Notes under the pieces: generated by a model | The model's database searches: none | The model's input: only the letters and a program-made list of their open reading frames with translations | What the model was told of the DNA's origin: nothing | In this document: positions 4,236 through 17,032 of the stretch, one piece after another | How positions within the stretch are numbered: position 1 is the stretch's first letter | How the letters are laid out: every line of letters begins with the position of its first letter | Translations under genes and position numbers: made by a program | Assembly: GCA_017406465.1 (NCBI GenBank) | Contig: JAFQYM010000036.1 | Span: forward strand, 1-64,000 | DNA length: 64,000 nucleotides | From: Kiritimatiellia bacterium | GTDB lineage: Bacteria > Verrucomicrobiota > Kiritimatiellia > RFP12 > UBA1067 | Direction: 5' to 3'

Positions 4236-4249
4236 TTGCTTGTCGTGAT

Positions 4250-4345
4250 TTGCGTTGTTTGCCGTTTATCCTTGTTTAGTAAATGGTGCATATTTCCACA
4301 CAACGCAACACAGTAGTGTTCATGTAGGCACACGGCAAACACAGC
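4250..4345. other. Nested inverted repeats, candidate replication or transfer origin
   Basis: TTGCGTTGT at 4250-4258 is inverted as ACAACGCAA near 4310-4318, and TTTGCCGT directly after it is inverted as ACGGCAAA near 4332-4339. The stretch between the plus-strand terminator and the end of the rep gene is AT-rich and has no open frame of note. Its place beside an HUH Rep fits a double-strand origin or oriT, but no nick site can be identified by eye. Confidence 0.35.
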
Positions 4346-4373
4346 ACCTCATATCTATTTTGTTTACACATAA

Positions 4374-5570
4374 TCAAGCAAGATAGTTCTTTAGTGCTTT
4401 GGTCATGCGCATCGTGGAATTACGAAGTTTCGGAGGTTTCGACCGTTTACGCTTGTTCAGCGTTTTCTTTACCTGTTGTACGATTGTCTCCACAATTTGA
4501 GATGTAACGCCAACGAACAGCCCAGCAATTGTAAACTTTTCAGGGAAAGGTTTGTCTTTGTGGACTTTTCTCCATATTCCCCTCAAAACCCCATCTCTGA
4601 TTTCTGGCGGAATGAGAATGGCTTCGGGTTTCAATTCCTCCAAGTTTTTCTTTTGCACCTTCCCCCACGGTTTTCCTCTTGGATAGCATTGCGTTGTCTT
4701 TGCTAAATAGTTAATCAATTTTGGCATGTAATCAGGGTCTGCTTCCTCATCAATCATTCTCGTACATACTCCGTACTGCCAAAAAAACCGCATTTTGCAT
4801 TGAGGAATAGGGCGACAACGAATTGCGTTGAACCACAATACTCGGAAGGTATTATGCACAAAGTCTGTTACCTCGTCCGACATTGAAGGCATAATTCCAC
4901 CTGCGTCAATAATAGCCTGCCTTTTGGCTTTCCGCATTTTTGCAACCCATGTGTATGCGTCAGTTGCCCAGTCATAATCCAAAGGCGTGTAAACAATGGC
5001 GTGTATATGCGGCCCTCCGTCTTCCGTCATTTCCCGGCGATAAATTATTGCGCATCGTTTGAAACACCGCGCAAATGAGGTGCTAAAAGTTTTTTGTGCT
5101 TTCTCGAAATCATCCAAGATTGCTTCTTGTCTCCACTCCTTTCCCTTCCAATTCTCTTCGCCCCAATGGTGTACCGTGAGCGTGACGTGATATTTGATTG
5201 AGCCGCGAGGCAAATCAAGACAATCTACAGCCTTCTTGAATTTTCGTTGAGATGCACGTGAAAAGCCCACAATCCTACCTCTTTTGGACTCCTTTATCCC
5301 TGTCCAATAACCTCGAAGACCTGTTTCGTGTCCGATTATCACCCCATGTGGAGTTTTATAGTCGTGCCCATTCTTATACCGATACTCCGCCCTGCCTGAT
5401 TTCTCGTTTTTCAGACGCTTAACAGATTTCCCGAATTCTTTCAGAGTGTGTTCTACACTTTTTGCGTCTAAATCAGTCTTGCGACCAGTTAGTAAATCAC
5501 TCATAAATGGAGTTAGACATCCCAACTCCTCCGCATCCTTCAATAGTTTCTTTTTCTTGTAGTCAATCAT
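4374..5570 (-). CDS. HUH-family rolling-circle Rep / relaxase
   Basis: A 398-residue protein with the three motifs of HUH endonucleases in order. Motif 1 is a strand YHVTLTVHH near residues 127-135. Motif 2 is PHIHAIVY with H188 and H190 as metal ligands. Motif 3 is YxxxxxxYLAK with Y281 and Y288 as candidate nucleophiles. It would nick and religate one strand to start rolling-circle replication or transfer of the excised element. It is the last gene of a nine-gene operon starting at 8980; AAGGAGC inside the end of the preceding gene serves as its ribosome binding site. Base composition is more AT-rich than in its neighbours. Confidence 0.82.
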   Translation of the reverse strand: MIDYKKKKLLKDAEELGCLTPFMSDLLTGRKTDLDAKSVEHTLKEFGKSVKRLKNEKSGRAEYRYKNGHDYKTPHGVIIGHETGLRGYWTGIKESKRGRIVGFSRASQRKFKKAVDCLDLPRGSIKYHVTLTVHHWGEENWKGKEWRQEAILDDFEKAQKTFSTSFARCFKRCAIIYRREMTEDGGPHIHAIVYTPLDYDWATDAYTWVAKMRKAKRQAIIDAGGIMPSMSDEVTDFVHNTFRVLWFNAIRCRPIPQCKMRFFWQYGVCTRMIDEEADPDYMPKLINYLAKTTQCYPRGKPWGKVQKKNLEELKPEAILIPPEIRDGVLRGIWRKVHKDKPFPEKFTIAGLFVGVTSQIVETIVQQVKKTLNKRKRSKPPKLRNSTMRMTKALKNYLA

Positions 5571-5576
5571 AGCGTC

Positions 5577-6014
5577 TTATGCTCCTTTCTTGTTTTCGAT
5601 TTCTGCCAATTGGCGGTTTATGTCGGCGGCGACCTCTCGCGGCAAGTACCACATAGCGGGACGCCCCGCTATCGGTATGAACCGCTTGAGCCAGACAGGA
5701 TTTGCCAGTTTCCAGCGGCACGGGTCTTCAGCGTCGGCTTCATATTCGACCACGCCGACGATTTCCCCCGCGTGTTGTGCAAGCGTCTCGTATGGCGGCA
5801 ACTCCCGCTCCACGATCCTGCCACTCTTCCAGTTGTCGGCTATGTACGCCCTGTCCTCGTCATACGCCGCCCGCGTGTAGTTGCGGCTGAAATGGACGGC
5901 ACAACGCCCGCGCACGGTACGCGGCTCGCTACTGCGCACCTCCACGGTCTTGTAGCCGTGCATCTGCGTCCAACCCCAAATCCACTTCACTGTAAACGCG
6001 CATTTCACGTCCAT
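5577..6014 (-). CDS. ASCH-domain protein
   Basis: A 145-residue protein that matches the ASCH fold pattern: N-terminal WxWxxxxGYKTVEVRS, then RGRCAVHFSR, a central GEIVGVVEY and a C-terminal basic/proline segment. ASCH domains are PUA-like and are thought to bind RNA or modified nucleotides; in mobile elements they are common but poorly understood. It lies between a small unknown gene and rep with nearly no gaps, so it is co-transcribed with them. Confidence 0.75.
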   Translation of the reverse strand: MDVKCAFTVKWIWGWTQMHGYKTVEVRSSEPRTVRGRCAVHFSRNYTRAAYDEDRAYIADNWKSGRIVERELPPYETLAQHAGEIVGVVEYEADAEDPCRWKLANPVWLKRFIPIAGRPAMWYLPREVAADINRQLAEIENKKGA

Positions 6015-6017
6015 AGG

Positions 6018-6251
6018 CTAATCCTCGTCGTCGAATGAAATACCAAGGCTACGCTTCATATCCGCCTCCTGTCGCCCGAAGGCGTCCTCTTCCATCGGTA
6101 TGCCTGTCTCCTCTTCCTTTCGGACGCGAAGTTTGTACACCTCCTCGCCGAAGCGTTCGGGGTCGTCGAAGATTTCCGAATCAAGCATATCGACCAACTC
6201 GCAGATGTTCTTCTTTGAGGTGTCGGTCTTCAGTATCTCGTCTGCTGTCAT
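6018..6251 (-). CDS. Small acidic protein of unknown function
   Basis: A 77-residue protein starting at 6251, where GGAGG precedes the ATG. The longer reading frame upstream is rejected because this site overlaps the stop of the previous gene (ATGA). The protein is rich in Glu, Asp and Lys and predicted helical. No recognisable domain. Operon position between the 88-residue protein and the ASCH gene supports it being real. Confidence 0.65.
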   Translation of the reverse strand: MTADEILKTDTSKKNICELVDMLDSEIFDDPERFGEEVYKLRVRKEEETGIPMEEDAFGRQEADMKRSLGISFDDED

Positions 6252-6514
6252 GGCTGCCTCCGTTTCTTTTCCTTTTCCCAAGGCTTCCCATACTTCCCGT
6301 AGTAATCCGACGCCAGAACCTCCCACTCGTCGTTGAGGTCTTCTTCTGGAACGTAAGTGCCCATTGCGGAATGCCACGCCATGCCCGAATCCTTGGGCAG
6401 TTTGTAGTTGGGCTTCATCTTCACCGTGTGCGCGACGCCGTTCTCGTCTATCGCCGTCGTCGGGTTGGGAAAGACGATTACTGGCGGCTCTATGAAGTCA
6501 TCTTCGGCCCTCAT
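6248..6514 (-). CDS. Small protein of unknown function
   Basis: An 88-residue protein linked to both neighbours by 4-bp ATGA overlaps (6511-6514 and 6248-6251), typical of translational coupling. It has a Pro-rich first half (PPVIVFPNP), a central acidic segment and a basic C-terminus (KEKKRRQP). Its family is not recognised. Confidence 0.7.
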   Translation of the reverse strand: MRAEDDFIEPPVIVFPNPTTAIDENGVAHTVKMKPNYKLPKDSGMAWHSAMGTYVPEEDLNDEWEVLASDYYGKYGKPWEKEKKRRQP

Positions 6515-7167
6515 TGAACGTCTCCTTCCTTATCCGTGATTGGGGCTTCGCTTTCGTCCCATATCAGTTTTTCGTCAAGCAGAGTGTCTGCCATGACATT
6601 ATCAATCATCAACCTGTAGTGCGATTCCTCGACGGCGTTGCTTCTCCGGGCTTCGAGAAGCGCGTTCATCATCGCCTCTCTCGAAACCATACCTCGCTTG
6701 TAGCGGTCGTACAGTCCCAACACCCCGCCCCCGTCGCGTCCCTCGCCAAATGGGGACAGGCGGAATCCGGCGGCTCGCCCAAGCGAAAGAAGTCTGTCGA
6801 TGGCTCTGCGGAACTGCAAGACCGAACGGGTTTCCCAGTCGTCAAGCCCTGCAATGACAAGGCAGATTCTGGGAAGCGGGACTCTCGTCTTGGCGTTGTA
6901 CTCGGCAAGGTTGCGTATCCGCCTTTGGGCAAACGCCTCAAGCCGAAGTTTCATTTCCATCATCAAGAGCGACCGCACAATCAGAATGCCAAGGCACTCG
7001 TCCGTACATGGATTCTCTATGTGCGGCAACCGTCGTCCCTGTTCTTCAGCCCTCTGCAAGACGAGCGGAGGGTACACCACCTCAAGAGGCGGCAGACAGC
7101 CCTCCAGCCGCCGCAGACCGGCTTCACATCCAAAGGCGTATGTCAACGTTTCTGTCTTCGCGTTCAT
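6511..7167 (-). CDS. FtsK-like protein without a Walker A motif
   Basis: A 218-residue protein. Residues about 55-115 follow the FtsK/SpoIIIE/TcpA motor pattern: TDECLG, then MEMKLRLEAFAQRRIRNLA, then EYNAK and a hydrophobic strand LPRICLVIAG where FtsK proteins carry Walker B (VVVDE). No GxxxxGK[ST] is present and the Walker B acids are replaced, so it should not hydrolyse ATP. It probably derives from the coupling/translocase ATPase of a related element and may act as an adaptor with Rep. ATGA overlap with the next gene; GGAGA precedes the start. Confidence 0.6.
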   Translation of the reverse strand: MNAKTETLTYAFGCEAGLRRLEGCLPPLEVVYPPLVLQRAEEQGRRLPHIENPCTDECLGILIVRSLLMMEMKLRLEAFAQRRIRNLAEYNAKTRVPLPRICLVIAGLDDWETRSVLQFRRAIDRLLSLGRAAGFRLSPFGEGRDGGGVLGLYDRYKRGMVSREAMMNALLEARRSNAVEESHYRLMIDNVMADTLLDEKLIWDESEAPITDKEGDVQ

Positions 7168-7228
7168 TTGTCTTACTGTCTCCTATTTCTGTTTGAGTTT
7201 TACCTTTCAATGCGTGTCGTTGCGCGTG

Positions 7229-7372
7229 TTAATTCGCCAACCCATACATTGCGTCTTTCCCCTGCGTTTTTGCCCCGAAAAACTTAATTCTTGACACTTT
7301 CAGGATTTTTTTCGGAGGCCATCGCGCGCCCACGCGCCCGCGACCCTCACTGTTCACTTTCTTTGCCGCCAT
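7229..7372 (-). CDS. Small very basic protein (47 residues)
   Basis: A short frame beginning with AGGAGG five nt before ATG, one of the best ribosome binding sites of the operon. The product starts MAAKKVNSEGRGRVGARW and is rich in Lys/Arg with few acidic residues, suggesting nucleic-acid contact. It lies in the 256-bp gap between the two FtsK-like genes, in the same direction. No family recognised. Confidence 0.5.
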   Translation of the reverse strand: MAAKKVNSEGRGRVGARWPPKKILKVSRIKFFGAKTQGKDAMYGLAN

Positions 7373-7423
7373 TTTTGCCTCCTGTTTCTTCGCGTATTTT
7401 GAAACTTTCCATGTCCCGCTCCA

Positions 7424-8293
7424 TCATGTCCGCAAGCAGACTTCGGACACGAACATCTTCGCCGCCGCCTTTGTCCTTGGGGTGCTAATCGGTGTGGCTA
7501 CCTGCATGGCGTATTCCGCCTCCGAACGGCTGTTGAACCATGTGCAGTGCTTCACAGACGACACCCAAGAGAACCCGACCTTGCTGTACCCCCTCGCAAG
7601 TGCGAACACGCGGGCGGACTCATTGCCTTTCGGCATAACACGGCAAACGACATATCCACAGTCGCCCTTGAGACCTTTTCCCGCATCATCCTGCGCCACG
7701 GCAACTTCTCCGCCGCCGAGCCGCACAACACGAATGGGTGCAAGGGCATCCGCCAAACGCGCCGCCATGCTCTCGCCCTCGTCATCGTCTTGGGACGCGA
7801 AGACGGCGTAGATGCCGACATCGCGGGCAGACAGAAGCGCAGGGCGCATCCCCTCGACAAGAGGCACGTCGGCGGCGGAGCAGACCGCCTCGACGACCAA
7901 GACGATTATGGGCAACTTATCGCCCGTCTTCTCGTCGTACTCGTCAAGACTGCCGACCCCCGCACGGGCAAACAGCCCTTGGCGGCGTTCCATTTCGGGC
8001 GCGAAGAAGCCCATAGCATCCAGCGGCGCGTTGTCCGTCTCTACCTCCGCCTTGACGTTGGGGATGTCCGGCAGCATCTTCAGGATCGTCTGCCGCCCGA
8101 ATGCGCGTATTTCCAGTTCATCCGCAGAGCGTCCAGCCGCCAGCGATTCAAGGAGCGAGCGCAGAGCGCGTAACCGCTCCTTGCGCGAAGCACCCCCAGC
8201 GAGGAGAAGCCCCGCTCCGATTTTCCCGCCGCCGATGTCGATTGCTTCGCCAGCCGCGCCGTTGACAGTTGCCGTCAGTTTCGAGTTGTTCAT
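7424..8293 (-). CDS. FtsK-like protein with degenerate ATPase motifs
   Basis: A 289-residue protein; the start at 8293 is preceded by AAAGGGA. An FtsK-type layout is visible: GAGLLLAGGASRKERL where Walker A (GxTGSGKS) is expected, then ETDNAPLDAM, APEMERRQGLFARAGVGSL, DEYDEKTGDKLPIIVLVVEA at the Walker B place, and ARDVGIYAVFASQ at the sensor strand. The P-loop lysine and Walker B acids are missing. It is thus a second pseudo-ATPase next to the one at 6511-7167. The C-terminus (FARGYSKVGF-like, then a Ser/Cys-containing tail) is specific to this protein. Confidence 0.62.
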   Translation of the reverse strand: MNNSKLTATVNGAAGEAIDIGGGKIGAGLLLAGGASRKERLRALRSLLESLAAGRSADELEIRAFGRQTILKMLPDIPNVKAEVETDNAPLDAMGFFAPEMERRQGLFARAGVGSLDEYDEKTGDKLPIIVLVVEAVCSAADVPLVEGMRPALLSARDVGIYAVFASQDDDEGESMAARLADALAPIRVVRLGGGEVAVAQDDAGKGLKGDCGYVVCRVMPKGNESARVFALARGYSKVGFSWVSSVKHCTWFNSRSEAEYAMQVATPISTPRTKAAAKMFVSEVCLRT

Positions 8294-8319
8294 TGCCTTG
8301 TTCCCTTTCTTGTTTCGTT

Positions 8320-8664
8320 TTAGTCGTTGGTTTTGTAGCCGAGGGCATCTTGCGCATCCCGAAGGTCGCCCCATACCTCCTTGTACGCATCGTCGCGCAC
8401 AGTGCCGTCGTGGGCGGCGTCCTTGAAGTTGGGGTAGTCTATAGCCTCCGCTTCTTCGGCGGCTATCCGCGTCCATTCTGCGCGTGGGAAGTCCATTCGC
8501 CAGCGGTAGTCGCCAGTCGGCGTGGCATGTACGCATGGCTCTACGCCGTGCGCACGGCAAAGCCGCTCAAGGTCGCCTCTGAACCGTGCGCGGACATGTA
8601 TCGTGTCCGGCTTGGAGTTGTGCCGCACCGCGCTGAAGAACCCGTTTCTCACGAATAGCCACAT
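8320..8664 (-). CDS. Conserved small protein of plasmids and integrative elements, function unknown
   Basis: A 114-residue protein starting at 8664 (MWLFVRNGFFSAV), where GGGAG precedes the ATG. Aromatic start, HVRARFRGDLERL, GDYRWR, IDYPNFK and YKEVWGDL recall a small hypothetical protein I associate with plasmids and mobile elements; its role is unknown to me. The longer upstream frame overlaps the previous gene and is rejected. Confidence 0.65.
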   Translation of the reverse strand: MWLFVRNGFFSAVRHNSKPDTIHVRARFRGDLERLCRAHGVEPCVHATPTGDYRWRMDFPRAEWTRIAAEEAEAIDYPNFKDAAHDGTVRDDAYKEVWGDLRDAQDALGYKTND

Positions 8665-8668
8665 GGCG

Positions 8669-8980
8669 TCACGCTCCCTTCCGGCTGTCGCCCTTGCCCG
8701 CGAACCTCTTTGTGAGTTCCCATCCGGGCTTGCGGTCGCGTCCCGCACGGACTGCGGCATCCACACGCGCCCGCCGCGCCGTGTTCACGGCAAGGCGTCT
8801 TGCCGCCCATGCCTCCGCCTTCGGGGTTGCCGTCACCTTGCGGACGGCTTCGTGGACGAGCCGCGCCACGATGACGCTCATCGTCACGTCTTGCTCATCC
8901 GCCAGCGTCATTACTTTCGCCGCGTCGCCGATGTCGCATCTGCTCATCAGCGCGTAGGTCGTCGGTCTTGCCTGTCTCAT
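8669..8980 (-). CDS. Small basic helical protein, possible mobilization accessory
   Basis: A 103-residue protein; start at 8980 with AAAGGAGAAACG before it. It opens with MRQARPTTYALMSRCDIGD and then a helical segment VTMSVIVARLVHEAV, followed by an Arg-rich half. The layout is reminiscent of ribbon-helix-helix MobC-like accessory proteins, but the match is weak. It is the first gene of the Rep operon and follows a long structured leader. Confidence 0.6.
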   Translation of the reverse strand: MRQARPTTYALMSRCDIGDAAKVMTLADEQDVTMSVIVARLVHEAVRKVTATPKAEAWAARRLAVNTARRARVDAAVRAGRDRKPGWELTKRFAGKGDSRKGA

Positions 8981-9197
8981 CGTTTCTCCTTTCGTTTCTC
9001 GTTTTCTTTGTCCGTCCAAAGCACCACGAGTAACGCACCCCTCGGAGAAACTTCAAGCCACCAGTCTTCGTTCAAAACTGGTGGCTCTGGAACCCAGTTT
9101 CCCTTTCGGGCACATCCGCTTTCGCGCTCCACCGTGGCAGTTCCGTCGCTCGGTTGGCATCATCGCTTTCGCAATGAACTCTATGATGTTCTGAACG
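8981..9197 (-). ncRNA. Structured leader RNA of the Rep operon (copy 2 of a two-member family)
   Basis: The expected transcript start (about 9197) gives a 217-nt leader. It begins with CGUUCA (9197-9192), which is complementary to UGAACG (9074-9069) in the loop of a 9-bp hairpin GCCACCAGU/ACUGGUGGC, forming a pseudoknot. Between them lie a GAAA-capped hairpin, the conserved core GCCAACCGAGCG and GCCACGGUGGAG (9158-9127), a CGCGAAAGCG hairpin, a CCCGAAAGGG hairpin and a GGAAC/GUUCC closing helix. The same elements in the same order, with changed but still paired stems, occur at 15306-15173. Confidence 0.7.
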
Positions 9198-9281: not shown

Positions 9282-12200
9282 TCAACCAAGCCACTCCTTC
9301 GACAGCGTGGAGAGTTTCTGCATGAGGGCGCGGGTACGGGAAAGCGCAAGAATGATGGCCTGGTAGTGGTCGATGTCTTCATTCGCGAGCGTGTGTCCTT
9401 TTCTGTCCTTCAGCCACTTCTGCGCGGGCTGGTAGCCGCCGATGAACATCCCCCATGCCTCTTCCGGCACATGGTCGAAATACTGCTCGTCGTTGATGTA
9501 CACCTTGCCGTTGGCAAAGCGCACGTCCTCAACGGCATTGCCCCCGCCCTTGGGGAAGTTGGCGATGCGGTTGCGTTCGCTCGCCGTGGGCTTCGCCTTC
9601 AGCAGATGCGTCTCGCGGAGTTCTCCGCCAATCTTCGCAAGTTTCTTGAACACCGCCGCGTTCGTCGGATAGGGTATGCGCGGGAAATCGACCTTAAGGA
9701 ACTCCCTGTACCGTTCGCGGTATTCGGGCGTGTGCAGAACGGCGTAGATGTAGTCGAAGAGTTCTTCCGGCGACGGCTTGCGCTTCAAGCCGTCAGCAAT
9801 GCGCCCAAACACATCCTTGTCGAAATTCGCCACCTTCTCCACGTTCCCCAGCGTGTCTTGGTAGAGGTAGAGAGGGAAGACATAACCACGCTCTTTCGTA
9901 CGACTTGAAACAAAGCAATCGTCCACAAGGCAATCCGCTACGCCAACAAGATTCCAATCATTCGTTGCAAGATGTTTGCAAACGACAAGTGCAATGTTGT
10001 CATGCTGGTGGATATGCTGCATGACAGGCTTCCTTTGCCGCCACACCGTCTTTGGAGTAAAGCATACCCATCTATCATCAAATGGACGATATGAATAGCG
10101 GACTATGTTACTACTGGAATCTATCGGCAAGTTGCCCAAGACAAAAGAAGCATAGTTTTTCCCAAGACCATACTTCGCCTTGAGTTCTGCCTCTTTGTAA
10201 CCCTTGCCATTGATGTCGCTTATACGTTCCTTGAGTTCATCTTGCGTATGTGCAACTGCGAAGGAATCCCCCATCGTCAGAACTGCGGTACTGTTAATCG
10301 GTAACAATGCGTCAATGCCGAATCCCGATTGGTACTGGTCGCTCCCCGCTTCATTCTGCGGCACAAGCAAATAGTATGGTGCGGTCGGCGTAACAGTAGC
10401 GAACCCCACAGTCGCAAGCGACTTGCTTTCGAGGTATGCGAACTTGTCCTTGCGCGTCCCCCACAGGTCGGCATAGTGGACTTTTGCGAGTTCACCTTTT
10501 TTCTTCTTGCCTGTCTTGACGAATATGTTTATTGCCGTGCCTACGGTGATTGAAAACACGTTCTCGTCCTTGCTGCCATTGGGGGCTTTCTCGTGCTTCA
10601 TGGAGTTGCCGTGAAGGTTCAGCACGTAGATTTCGTCGAAGCAGTCGAGAAGTTGCCACCGCATACCCCTAAACGTCGGGTTGTCGAGAAGCCCGTGGTT
10701 GTTGATGTAGGCGAGTACACCTTCTCCCCTGCGCTCCACGTAGTCCTGTGCAAGGCGAATGAACTTCACGTAGTCGTCGTTCAGCCAGTGCTTGCGCTCC
10801 TTCAGCTTCTCCTTCCCGCCCGGTTCCGTCTTGTAGTCCGCCACGAGGTCGGAAATCCACTTGCCGTTGTTCTGCGAGATGCCGCTGTAGGGCGGGTTGC
10901 CCATGACGACCATCACGGGGCAGTCGCGCTTGACGGCGTTCGCAGCGTTCGCCTCCGCGCCGAGGAGGATGTCGAAGAGCGTACCGCTCAAGTCCTTCGC
11001 CTTTTCAAGCGAATTGGTGAGAAAGATGTTGAAGCGTTTGTCTGTGTTGTGTTCATAGCCGGTGTCGGCGAGAACGCGGTCGAGCTTGATGTGCGCCATC
11101 GTGTAGGGGGCCATCAGAAGTTCAAAGCCGTTGAGACGCGGAATAAGGTTTTCAGCGACGTAGCCGGGCCACTTGCCTTTGTTGGCGAGGAACTTGCCGT
11201 AGATGCGGTTGATACACTCCGCTAGGAACGTCCCCGTTCCTGTCGCAGGGTCGAGAACCTGGACTTTCGGCACGGTCTTTTTGACCTTCTTCGTCAGGGA
11301 CTTTCCCGTGTCGCAGTTTTCCGTCACTTCAATCTGCACCATGTCGCGGCTGGCTATGCCGTCCGCGATGCCGAATTGTTTCACAAGGATGTCGTCGACG
11401 GCGCGGACGATGAAGCGCACCACGGGAAGCGGAGTGTACCATACGCCTCTATCCTTGCGCAGGCCCGCATCGTAGGCGTTGAGGAAGTCCTCGTAGAAGT
11501 GAATCATCGGGTCGCTGCGCTTTTTGGACTTTCCGTAGTCCTTCATGATGCCGCGCACGTCGGCGGCGGCGAAGAGACGAACGATGTCATCGACGGGCCA
11601 CTTGATTTCGTCCTCGATGTCGGAATTGATGTGGTTGAAGAGTTTGCGCAGGAATGGATTGGATTTCGGGATAAGACGCGCCGCCTCTTCGCGCGAGAAG
11701 TCCTCCGGCATGTCGTCGTGGAGACGTGCGGCGAACATTCCGTATGTGAGCGTCTGCGCGTAGATGTCGGAGAACTCGTCCGCGTTGGTGTCGGGCATGA
11801 GTACGCGCTTGAAACCCTCCATCAGTTCCCAGAGCGTCGAACCTTTGGCATTGCCGCTCGAAAGGAACTTCTGCGCGGCGACCTGAAGAAGCCGCGCCTT
11901 CGCCGCCATGAACTGCGCGAGCTGGGTCGGGGAGGTGATGGTCTGCGGCTCGGCATCGCCGAGGCGTTCGACAAGCGCGACGAACTTGCCGAAGTTCTCG
12001 GAAAGCGGGCGGATGCCGTCGCCAACCACCTCGCCGATGCGCACAGAATCGACGAATGCGCCGTTCTCGTAGAAATGGAAGTCGAGGAAGTCGGTGAATG
12101 CTATCGTCTGGTACGCCGCCTTGTAGCGGTCAAACTGCTCCTTGTAGCCGGAATCCTTCTTGCCGGCGAGGTCTCCCGCTCCAATCTTCTTCGTTTCGAC

Positions 12201-12458
12201 GATTGCGATTAGGAGACCGCCGTCAGGATCGGTCGTTATGGTGTAGTCGGGCTTGTTGCGCTCCATCGGCTTCGGCTCGTTCGTGACGCCGCGATTGGGT
12301 AGCAATGCCCGCAGAAGCGGCGAAAGCGCGTCGCGGTAGGACACTTCCGTTGCCTTACCCGTCCTGTACATCCTGTCCACGGCTTCAATGTATGCCACAC
12401 ACGCCGCTTCCTCTTTCGTCACGGAAGCGGACTTCTGAACAGTCTTTTTCGTCTTCAC
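9282..12458 (-). CDS. Type ISP/IIG-like restriction-modification enzyme
   Basis: A 1,058-residue single-chain enzyme. The N-terminal part carries a nuclease-like segment (KPDYTITTDPDGGLLIAIVE, then TKK near residues 70-92). The middle is an N6-adenine methyltransferase with motif I VLDPATGTGTF (D403) and motif IV NPPY (521-524). The C-terminal third matches the type ISP specificity domain. No helicase motifs are seen between nuclease and methyltransferase. It would methylate host DNA and cut unmethylated invading DNA. The start is GTG at 12458; its AGAGG ribosome binding site lies in a helix of the leader. Divergent from the AlbA_2 gene. Confidence 0.85.
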   Translation of the reverse strand: MKTKKTVQKSASVTKEEAACVAYIEAVDRMYRTGKATEVSYRDALSPLLRALLPNRGVTNEPKPMERNKPDYTITTDPDGGLLIAIVETKKIGAGDLAGKKDSGYKEQFDRYKAAYQTIAFTDFLDFHFYENGAFVDSVRIGEVVGDGIRPLSENFGKFVALVERLGDAEPQTITSPTQLAQFMAAKARLLQVAAQKFLSSGNAKGSTLWELMEGFKRVLMPDTNADEFSDIYAQTLTYGMFAARLHDDMPEDFSREEAARLIPKSNPFLRKLFNHINSDIEDEIKWPVDDIVRLFAAADVRGIMKDYGKSKKRSDPMIHFYEDFLNAYDAGLRKDRGVWYTPLPVVRFIVRAVDDILVKQFGIADGIASRDMVQIEVTENCDTGKSLTKKVKKTVPKVQVLDPATGTGTFLAECINRIYGKFLANKGKWPGYVAENLIPRLNGFELLMAPYTMAHIKLDRVLADTGYEHNTDKRFNIFLTNSLEKAKDLSGTLFDILLGAEANAANAVKRDCPVMVVMGNPPYSGISQNNGKWISDLVADYKTEPGGKEKLKERKHWLNDDYVKFIRLAQDYVERRGEGVLAYINNHGLLDNPTFRGMRWQLLDCFDEIYVLNLHGNSMKHEKAPNGSKDENVFSITVGTAINIFVKTGKKKKGELAKVHYADLWGTRKDKFAYLESKSLATVGFATVTPTAPYYLLVPQNEAGSDQYQSGFGIDALLPINSTAVLTMGDSFAVAHTQDELKERISDINGKGYKEAELKAKYGLGKNYASFVLGNLPIDSSSNIVRYSYRPFDDRWVCFTPKTVWRQRKPVMQHIHQHDNIALVVCKHLATNDWNLVGVADCLVDDCFVSSRTKERGYVFPLYLYQDTLGNVEKVANFDKDVFGRIADGLKRKPSPEELFDYIYAVLHTPEYRERYREFLKVDFPRIPYPTNAAVFKKLAKIGGELRETHLLKAKPTASERNRIANFPKGGGNAVEDVRFANGKVYINDEQYFDHVPEEAWGMFIGGYQPAQKWLKDRKGHTLANEDIDHYQAIILALSRTRALMQKLSTLSKEWLG

Positions 12459-12695
12459 AATAAGGGCCTCTCTTCTTGTGCTCTACTGAGGCCGTAGGAT
12501 TGCCTTTGAAGACACTCGAAGAGAGGCCACGCTTGCGCGTGAACCTCGCAACGAGTCGCCTTCGTGAAGTTTCCTACGTTTCAGTAGAACGACTTTGTTG
12601 CAGTTCCCTGCAAATTTGCGCCGCCGCGAACTTGCGTCCGCCTTGGCTATGTCCTTCACCCCGCCTTACACCGCAGTGCAAATTGAGGCGAATTG
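12459..12695 (-). ncRNA. Pseudoknotted leader RNA that can bury the restriction gene's ribosome binding site
   Basis: Expected 237-nt leader. Helix P1 pairs CUACUGA (12587-12581) with UCAGUAG (12489-12483). P2 pairs CGUAGGA (12578-12572) with UCCUACG (12499-12493). P3 pairs GGCCUCUCUUC (12528-12518) with GAAGAGAGGCC (12475-12465), an 11-bp perfect helix that contains the AGAGG ribosome binding site and crosses P1/P2, giving a pseudoknot. Small hairpins (CUUCACGAAG, CUCGUUGCGAG, CACGCGCAAGCGUG) fill the interior. The complementarity is direct observation; a regulatory role is inference. Confidence 0.65.
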
Positions 12696-12701
12696 GCGTA
12701 T

Positions 12702-12747
12702 ATTATACCATTTATCCGCCTCCAGCGGGTGAAAAATATGGTATAAT
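12702..12747. promoter_or_regulatory. Divergent promoters with a palindromic centre
   Basis: Minus-strand ATGGTATAAT (TATAAT 12707-12702) drives the restriction gene leader, and plus-strand ATGGTATAAT (TATAAT 12742-12747) drives the AlbA_2 gene. The two are mirror images around CCGC-CTCCA-GCGG near 12717-12729, which looks like a shared operator. The plus-strand start codon lies 9 nt after TATAAT. Confidence 0.65.
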
Positions 12748-12756
12748 AAGTGCCAA

Positions 12757-14163
12757 ATGACCGAAACCGACAGAATAGAGTACAAGCGGGAACTTTCGCC
12801 CGACATCGACCTTGAAGAGGAAGCGGTCGCGTTTCTCAATAGGCGCGAAGGCGGCATTCTCTACATCGGCATCGACAAGGCGGGCAATCCTGTCGGCGTG
12901 AAGGACATCGACGGCGACATCCTCAAAATCAAGGACAGACTGCGCAACAACATCCTTCCGTCTGCAATGGGGCTGTTCGATGTGACGGCGGATGTTATAG
13001 GCGGCGCGAAAGTCATCAAAGTGTTCTTCGCGGGCGGAAGCGAAAAGCCATACTACCTCAAACGTTATGGCATGACTCCGAAAGGCTGTTTCATCCGTGT
13101 GGGTACGGCTTGCGAGCCGATGCCGGAGGCGATGATTGAAGACCTGTTCGCAAGGCGTGTGCGCAACTCCATCGGGCGCATCCGTTCCGTCCGCCAAGAC
13201 CTCACCTTCGAGCAGTTGCGCATCTACTACCAAGAACACGGCTTCAAACTCAACGACAATTTTGCGCGGACGCTGGAGCTGCTGACGGACGACGGTGCAT
13301 ACAACTACGCCGCGTATCTGCTTGCCGACGAAAACGCGAACTCAATCAAGGTTGCGAAGTATGCGGGGCGCGACCGTGTGGAACTTGTCGCCAATAACGA
13401 ATACGGCATGACATCACTCGTCACCGCCACAAAGCGCGTAATCGAGCGGCTGAAGGTAGAGAACACCGTGCGGACGCGCAAGACCGCCTTGGAGCGCATC
13501 GACACGCCGCTGTGGGACGAACGCGCCGTGCGCGAAGCCGTCATAAACGCCATCGTCCATAACGACTACACTCGCGAAGTGCCGCCCAAGGTCGAACTCT
13601 TCTCCGACCATCTGGAGATAACATCGTTCGGACGCTTGCCGGAAGGTCTGACAAAGGATGACTTCTTCGCGGGTGTCTCAATTCCGCGCAATAAGGAATT
13701 GATGCGCATCTTCCGCGACCTTGAACTCGTCGAATCGCTCGGTTCCGGCATGGGCTACATCATGCAGAAGTACGGGCGCGACAACTTCATTTTCCTCGAT
13801 AACTTCATCCGCATGACCGTCCCCTACATCACCAAGGACAGGGAGGGTCTGGTGGTGGAAGCCGAACAAGCGACACCCCAAGTAACACCCCCAGTAGGCG
13901 TCAACCCTACAAGCAACCCTACAAGTAGCCTACAAGTAACCCTACAAGTAAATCGGCTTATTTCCATAATCAAGGGTGATATGCCACGGTCTGCAATAAT
14001 GGACGCATTGTCTCTTAAGGACAGGGTGACATTCACCGAAGATTACCTTCGCCCAGCCATGCGGCTTGGGCTAATTGAACTGACACAGCCTGATTCTCCG
14101 CGTTCGCCCACGCAGAAGTATCGTCTTACTGCAAAGGGCATGGCGGCTCTGGAAAAAGCATAG
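12757..14163 (+). CDS. Schlafen AlbA_2 / RecG-like regulator
   Basis: A 468-residue protein. Residues 5-115 match the AlbA_2 (Schlafen-like) domain (RIEYKREL, then GGILYIGIDKAGNPVGV). Residues about 255-350 match the HATPase_c_4 part often labelled RecG-like (REAVINAIVHNDYT, SLGSGMGYI). A Thr/Pro/Val-rich linker with repeated TPQVT and NPTS words leads to a C-terminal winged-helix (residues 395-468). Such proteins are common in mobile elements and act as regulators or stress/defence factors; substrate unknown. The start lies 9 nt after TATAAT, so the mRNA should be leaderless. Confidence 0.8.
   Translation: MTETDRIEYKRELSPDIDLEEEAVAFLNRREGGILYIGIDKAGNPVGVKDIDGDILKIKDRLRNNILPSAMGLFDVTADVIGGAKVIKVFFAGGSEKPYYLKRYGMTPKGCFIRVGTACEPMPEAMIEDLFARRVRNSIGRIRSVRQDLTFEQLRIYYQEHGFKLNDNFARTLELLTDDGAYNYAAYLLADENANSIKVAKYAGRDRVELVANNEYGMTSLVTATKRVIERLKVENTVRTRKTALERIDTPLWDERAVREAVINAIVHNDYTREVPPKVELFSDHLEITSFGRLPEGLTKDDFFAGVSIPRNKELMRIFRDLELVESLGSGMGYIMQKYGRDNFIFLDNFIRMTVPYITKDREGLVVEAEQATPQVTPPVGVNPTSNPTSSLQVTLQVNRLISIIKGDMPRSAIMDALSLKDRVTFTEDYLRPAMRLGLIELTQPDSPRSPTQKYRLTAKGMAALEKA

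Positions 14164-16955: not shown

Positions 16956-17032
<77 letters not shown>

Follow-up and report, generated by a model that had tools for sequence, protein, structure and literature searches.

The leader of a restriction-modification (R-M) gene in the window, as we call the whole 64,000-nt stretch of DNA analyzed here, belongs with a probability of about 0.7 to a family of structured cis-regulatory RNAs of Verrucomicrobiota, in which a two-state, riboswitch-like fold would serve as a sensor. Judged from Rfam 15 and from the part of the literature covered by our searches, the family is undescribed. On the pattern of conserved pairings and of sequences past the fold, the RNA probably decides whether each downstream gene is transcribed or translated.

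The leader core, a folded RNA of about 150 nt, lies before the R-M gene at positions 12467–12614 of the minus strand, as do all leader elements given below. From 5' to 3' it consists of the hairpin H1, the strands a, b, c, d and a', the hairpin P5, and the strands f, d', c', b' and f'; helices b, c and d are nested, and a–a' and f–f' cross those three. H1 (TTGCAG-GGAA-CTGCAA, 12598–12613) covaries in the fitted alignment. Helix a–a' joins GTCG (12590–12593) to CGAC (12555–12558), helix b joins CTACTGA (12581–12587) to TCAGTAG (12483–12489), helix c joins CGTAGGA (12572–12578) to TCCTACG (12493–12499), and helix d joins GAAGG (within 12555–12563) to TCTTC (within 12503–12512). Helix f is formed by the 5' arm GGCCTCTCTTC (12518–12528) and the 3' arm GAAGAGAGGCC (12465–12475); in the window copy, the 5' arm is overlapped by the 3' strand of the covarying P5 (GAGGTTCACGC..GCGTGGCCTC, 12523–12547). 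Almost no linkers separate the helices, so that a four-way junction of a, b, d and f would result. Helix c is possibly a kissing loop, because c' sits in the small hairpin h3 (12489–12505), in which one pair shows many double changes. Upstream of the core, a 5' domain (12620–12690) folds into two hairpins (12662–12690 and 12620–12642) flanking a CATAG motif (12645–12653); by eye, this module varies between copies in the upstream alignment. It is preceded by an extended -10 promoter element, TGGTATAAT (12702–12710), and TATAAT-like boxes occur at a similar distance in other copies with the ribosome binding site (SD) in f'.

The first-pass annotation had pointed to an 11-nt perfect complementarity covering the SD and to two 7-bp helices, our b and c, crossing it. 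All three pairings are present, with the arms of the 11-nt helix 42 nt apart, and the 11-nt pairing is far from chance. The sequence GGCCTCTCTTC is found at two places only in the window, namely 12518–12528 and 12465–12475, and in 2000 dinucleotide shuffles, the SD region matched the leader upstream of it over at least 11 nt three times. Just 2 of the 64 ORF starts of the window have such an 11-nt match; the second one, at 12756, by eye resembles a symmetric TATAAT promoter pair. The 271-nt leader region has a folding energy of -110.2 kcal/mol (z = -6.57), a value reached by none of 200 shuffles.

Homologs of the leader keep all three of these helices, and others, by compensatory changes, in answer to the covariation check that the annotation had proposed. 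In an alignment not fitted to the structure, 90.6% of the cells pair, versus 72.6% after shuffling, and the covariation is 0.546, versus 0.196 after shuffling and at most 0.101 with the partners slid; H1 is poorly aligned there (52.5%). The fitted 73-row alignment, which like any fitted alignment leans toward its own structure, has 95.1% of cells paired and double changes in 33 of 34 pairs. The values for the individual helices are 98.1% and 7 of 8 pairs for b, 98.2% and 7 of 7 for c, and 98.6% and 6 of 6 for d. The crossing helices a–a' and f–f' stood outside the model; in alignment A5 they display double compensatory changes in 17 of 17 pairs, among them 4 of 4 in a–a', with 84.1% of cells paired, versus 73.2% after shuffling and at most 60.6% after sliding. 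Likewise, the f/f' duplex energy is -20.10 kcal/mol, versus -12.99 ± 0.45 kcal/mol after swapping partners among 52 copies (0 of 500 swaps as low). Judged by this covariation in homologs, the pseudoknot in the window leader is real.

A BLAST search with the leader against 114 genomes from the taxonomic family yielded 27 homologous copies, chosen by hand from the matches listed, the remaining rows being mostly short and chance-looking. The covariance model R1 comprises 26 rows (25 of these copies plus the window) and the model R2 52 more diverse rows. RNA matches were found in 77 of the 114 family genomes (E <= 0.01), 107 of 161 genomes of the order (E <= 1e-4), 114 of 345 genomes of the class (E <= 1e-5) and 71 of 387 genomes sampled across the phylum (R2), 13 of these 71 lying outside the class; all these counts are lower bounds, and the larger searches used stricter filters. 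The window's own genome carries 11 copies (E <= 0.01), and the maximum is 25 diverse copies in one genome of 1.9 Mb. A pattern search found 55 DNA stretches, mostly labeled Kiritimatiellae, Verrucomicrobia, Lentisphaerae or just bacterium. Rfam 15 gave no relevant match to the window at gathering and permissive thresholds, to 20 loci at the gathering threshold or to two distant copies at permissive thresholds, and no known Rfam family thus claims the RNA at gathering score.

Several copies deserve separate mention. Strong copies on short contigs labeled Bacillota (L226, two copies) and Actinomycetaceae (L231) may reflect mis-binning or transfer, and a Halegenticoccus match (L214) was unconfirmed by R2. 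Locus L249 holds two copies in tandem (1501–1644 and 1812–1961), about 170 nt apart on one strand, like a tandem aptamer; in the window's genome, L310 (G000:C98) holds two copies (2472–2630 and 4246–4410) 1.8 kb apart. Owing to the symmetry of the RNA, the model also matches the opposite strand at L035, L116, L136 and several other loci; the matches at these three were dropped before one set of copy counts, and the duplex tests of that same set also left out L157–L160, four divergent copies of the window's genome. Other identities of the leader were discarded. A tRNA/tmRNA scan gave nothing but a tRNA-Ala at another place in the window, and Rfam had no match that would point to group I/II introns, OMEGA RNAs, retrons or known ribozymes. 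The search for a phage or plasmid origin yielded a single match of 27 bases among phages, nothing among plasmids and no viral contig with the pattern.

The sequence past the fold points to its output. A T-rich run (at least five T in seven, within 22 nt past f') follows f' in 152 of 169 copies (96/105, 20/28 and 36/36 in the three copy sets), versus 6–15% in control windows, which gave, when pooled, 15/168, 10/167, 18/165 and 17/165 at +100, +200, +300 and +400 and 24/169, 26/169 and 15/169 at -100, -200 and -300. Among 73 diverse copies, the putative terminator stem, in which the 3' strand of P5 and f face f' and the tail, has an energy of -25.59, versus -15.60 ± 0.41 in permuted controls (0 of 300), and the P5 hairpin one of -21.37, versus -14.97 ± 0.36 (0 of 300); the 5' strand of P5 paired with the tail was not distinct from permuted controls in the same copies (18 of 300). 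In most copies, f–f' is lengthened by the tail and then followed by T's, and the 5' half of this stem also pairs with covariation in P5; most copies hence resemble attenuators with an intrinsic terminator at their end. A stable stem directly before a T-run is present in 152 of 169 copies, the window copy not truly being among them, as it reaches the loose T count (TTATTGT) without a true T-run. The competition of the outer part of P5 with f is weak in some copies, where P5 often closes without that part, and we dropped it as a universal feature. Inspection by eye also led us to drop the idea of a conserved leader peptide behind the T-run, since the AUG of such a peptide is often AUA or missing.

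In the window copy, the place of the T-run is taken by the SD and the start codon, the tail after f' being CCCTTATTGTG. The gene (9282–12458, minus strand) encodes a protein of 1058 aa that joins an N6 methylase (N6_Mtase, 1.9e-7) and the Type ISP C-terminal specificity domain (Type_ISP_C, 3.4e-70) in one polypeptide, and is thus a Type ISP R-M protein. Its start is the GTG at 12458, 8 nt past the SD AGAGAGG (12467–12473), as supported by a 92% identical homolog in G045 that begins with ATG at the same place. As the annotation had claimed, the SD lies inside a long helix, namely in the 3' arm f', so that folding should mask it. The isolated pieces have energies of -25.5 kcal/mol for f–f', -16.2 kcal/mol for the full P5 and -6.8 kcal/mol for its inner part, which favors the masked state as the default of this copy. 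We read the window leader as riboswitch-like, with a putative translational output in the cell. Next to it, a divergent gene (12757–14163) encodes SLFN_AlbA_2, HATPase_c_4 and Fic-like_C domains; in G045, G100 and G021, the R-M gene has such a divergent neighbor, too. A tRNA-Ala (GGC) at 16957–17032 and a run of small genes at 4374–9019 by eye suggest an integrated element around the R-M gene.

These features enable us to propose a putative two-state model. In the first state, P5 would be formed, leaving the 3' arm free and the gene on. In the second state, the extended f–f' would form and transcription would stop; in the window version, where the SD and start codon stand instead of the T-run, the entry of the ribosome would be blocked. 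The choice between the P5 and f–f' states would be made by a signal that acts on the core, in the simplest case a small molecule, and the masked state would be the default in the window copy. As in riboswitches, a conserved structured domain occupies the 5' leader of same-strand genes, and at the level of sequence its putative expression platform is coupled to an alternative structure, with the competition of P5-outer seen in a part of the copies. Several points speak against the riboswitch-like reading, namely the nine downstream neighbors on the other strand, the weak competition between P5-outer and f in some copies, the leaning of fitted alignments toward their structure, the flanking modules described below, the window copy's want of a true T-run and a set of downstream genes that names no metabolite.

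The genes beside the copies bear on two further explanations. In 120 of the 169 copies, the called downstream neighbor (an ORF of at least 80 aa within 700 nt) shares the strand of the RNA; in 9 it lies on the opposite one, and in 40 none is called. The corresponding upstream counts are 94, 55 and 20. The RNA could be a free-standing small RNA or ribozyme with its own terminator, the downstream gene being incidental, as its compact fold, its terminator-like 3' end and the promoter-like box of some copies would allow. We consider this unlikely, given the 120 to 9 strand bias downstream, the up to 25 diverse copies per genome and the form with the SD in f', which runs into a coding start.

The downstream genes are unrelated to each other and include those of secreted repeat proteins, zinc-ribbon proteins and several kinds of R-M operon. 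Near the window's family, 92 downstream proteins (105 copies minus the 7 copies then known to have the SD in f' and 6 others) contain LRR_5 (11), Sel1 (5), Laminin_G_3 (3) and Zn_Ribbon_1 (3); at other loci, 59 proteins (64 copies gave 61, of which 2 were set aside) contain PEP-CTERM (5), LRR_5 (4), TSP3_bac (4), Sel1 (3) and N6_N4_Mtase (3). Among the downstream genes, 61 of 119 satisfy a simple signal-peptide rule, versus 99 of 409 other ORFs of the same loci. By eye, a secreted protein family with a shared YDLE..F start recurs at L281, L284, L285, L289 and L306, and the proteins at L284 and L285 carry TSP3 repeats. Upstream, many promoterless copies (L039, L047, L055, L057, L098, L116, L141 and others) stand about 25 nt behind a gene of toxin-antitoxin type, with a conserved linker; a TATAAT-like box lies upstream of other copies, among them that of the window. 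The fixed linker with an ORF ending beside it was found in 40 of 105 copies, and Pfam assigned to these 40 ORFs PIN (7), HepT-like (6), DUF5615 (3), PIN_3 (2), PDDEXK_2 (2) and others, several families being possible for a single protein. Flanking modules common to unrelated genes would not normally be expected of a riboswitch platform and point to possible copying through recombination. Together with the accessory nature of the downstream genes, the linker and its toxin-antitoxin type ORFs would suit a recombination or cassette element, in which the fold would function as DNA or would be a fixed terminator separating the cassettes; this we consider rather improbable, since DNA recombination would need neither crossing helices nor an alternative hairpin kept by compensatory change, and the RNA-less loci L234, L235 and L241 keep linker remnants rather than clean edges. 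The same remnants argue against a mobile element with clean excision.

R-M genes recur behind the RNA, a putative enrichment by our judgement. The form with the SD in f' precedes eight methyltransferase or R-M loci (the window, L034, L035, L036, L037, L038, L041 and L339). N6_Mtase lies downstream at the window, L034, L036 and L037; Type_ISP_C is shown for the window, the other three having been scanned over 480 aa only. Behind the masking RNA, L035 and L041 have EcoRI_methylase, and L038 by eye a broken one. The Type ISP gene at L339 is 33% identical and from another family, and there f' (GACGAGAGGG) is closely followed by ATG; by eye, L251 has a similar start-codon geometry before a gene not recognized as R-M. 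Copies also precede methyltransferase genes at L277, L293, L296 and L301, a PLD/ResIII protein at L304 and, by eye, a Mod-Res pair at L312; the second copy at L310 precedes an operon in which Pfam identifies an N6/N4 methylase and inspection by eye a C5 methylase together with genes resembling McrB and McrC.

From the masked SD the first-pass annotation had derived a lock that could put off restriction until the DNA of a newly entered host is fully methylated. The structural half of this proposal holds, with a covarying pseudoknot and the SD in f', but its R-M-timing half is not supported. The RNA is neither needed by R-M genes nor confined to them. An ISP homolog is encoded in 26 of 155 genomes of the order (E <= 1e-60), and no viral relative of the ISP protein was found by the peptide patterns used. 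Homologous loci that lack the pairing, which the annotation had named as counterevidence, do occur: R2 matched 6 of the 23 Type ISP homolog loci scanned, some of which hold little upstream DNA, and the SD is in f' at the ISP loci of G000, G045, G021 and G100. The 84% identical ISP gene of G053 is preceded by the terminator form of the RNA, its start codon lying well away from f'. The other R-M operons that were read have the methyltransferase behind the RNA, so that masking would restrain protection no less than cutting; this gene order, with the methylase or the fused enzyme first, argues against a delay of the endonuclease relative to the methylase. With the identical RNA type before many unrelated genes, the methylase itself masked at three loci, among them L035 and L041, and a single-polypeptide ISP enzyme that presumably makes both activities together, so that masking could not separate them, we regard an R-M-specific timing lock as very improbable.

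With somewhat less than even odds, the RNA may form a phylum-wide riboswitch class for one signal that switches accessory genes, including those of surface proteins, genes beside toxin-antitoxin genes and several kinds of R-M operon, with the terminator stem as an arm of the sensor and a translational lock at some R-M genes. If the signal reports infection or the entry of foreign DNA, this would be a control of defense at the RNA level. Rfam appears to have missed an abundant control RNA in a phylum that is frequent in animal guts. The one core with two outputs, transcription and translation, provides a defined sequence to probe and a set of target genes, and as R-M genes in Verrucomicrobiota can sit behind a complex leader RNA, RNA control of restriction is directly testable.

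The RNA shares features with several known systems. It resembles riboswitches and orphan candidates in its leader position and its conserved loops with compensated helices, and riboswitches in deriving terminator or SD-masking outputs from one core and in the alternative hairpin that competes with the output stem; it differs in that the genes behind it are accessory and not metabolic ones, the output stem doubles as an arm of the pseudoknotted core, Rfam has no match and any ligand is putative. With intrinsic-terminator attenuators it shares a stem followed by a T-run (152 of 169 copies) and a competing hairpin, whereas its fold is much larger, no conserved leader peptide was seen, and the window copy would act, if at all, on translation. 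Like the large ornate RNAs OLE, GOLLD, ROOL and raiA, it is an elaborate conserved fold of gut and rumen bacteria; unlike them, it has a core of about 150 nt, a leader position and many copies per genome, with no Rfam match. Finally, C proteins control Type II R-M systems according to two reports (PMC2997769, PMC4824078), and the leader RNA would likewise restrain the expression of an R-M gene; in contrast to C proteins, it is a cis-acting RNA, it is not specific to R-M genes, and it precedes the methylase.
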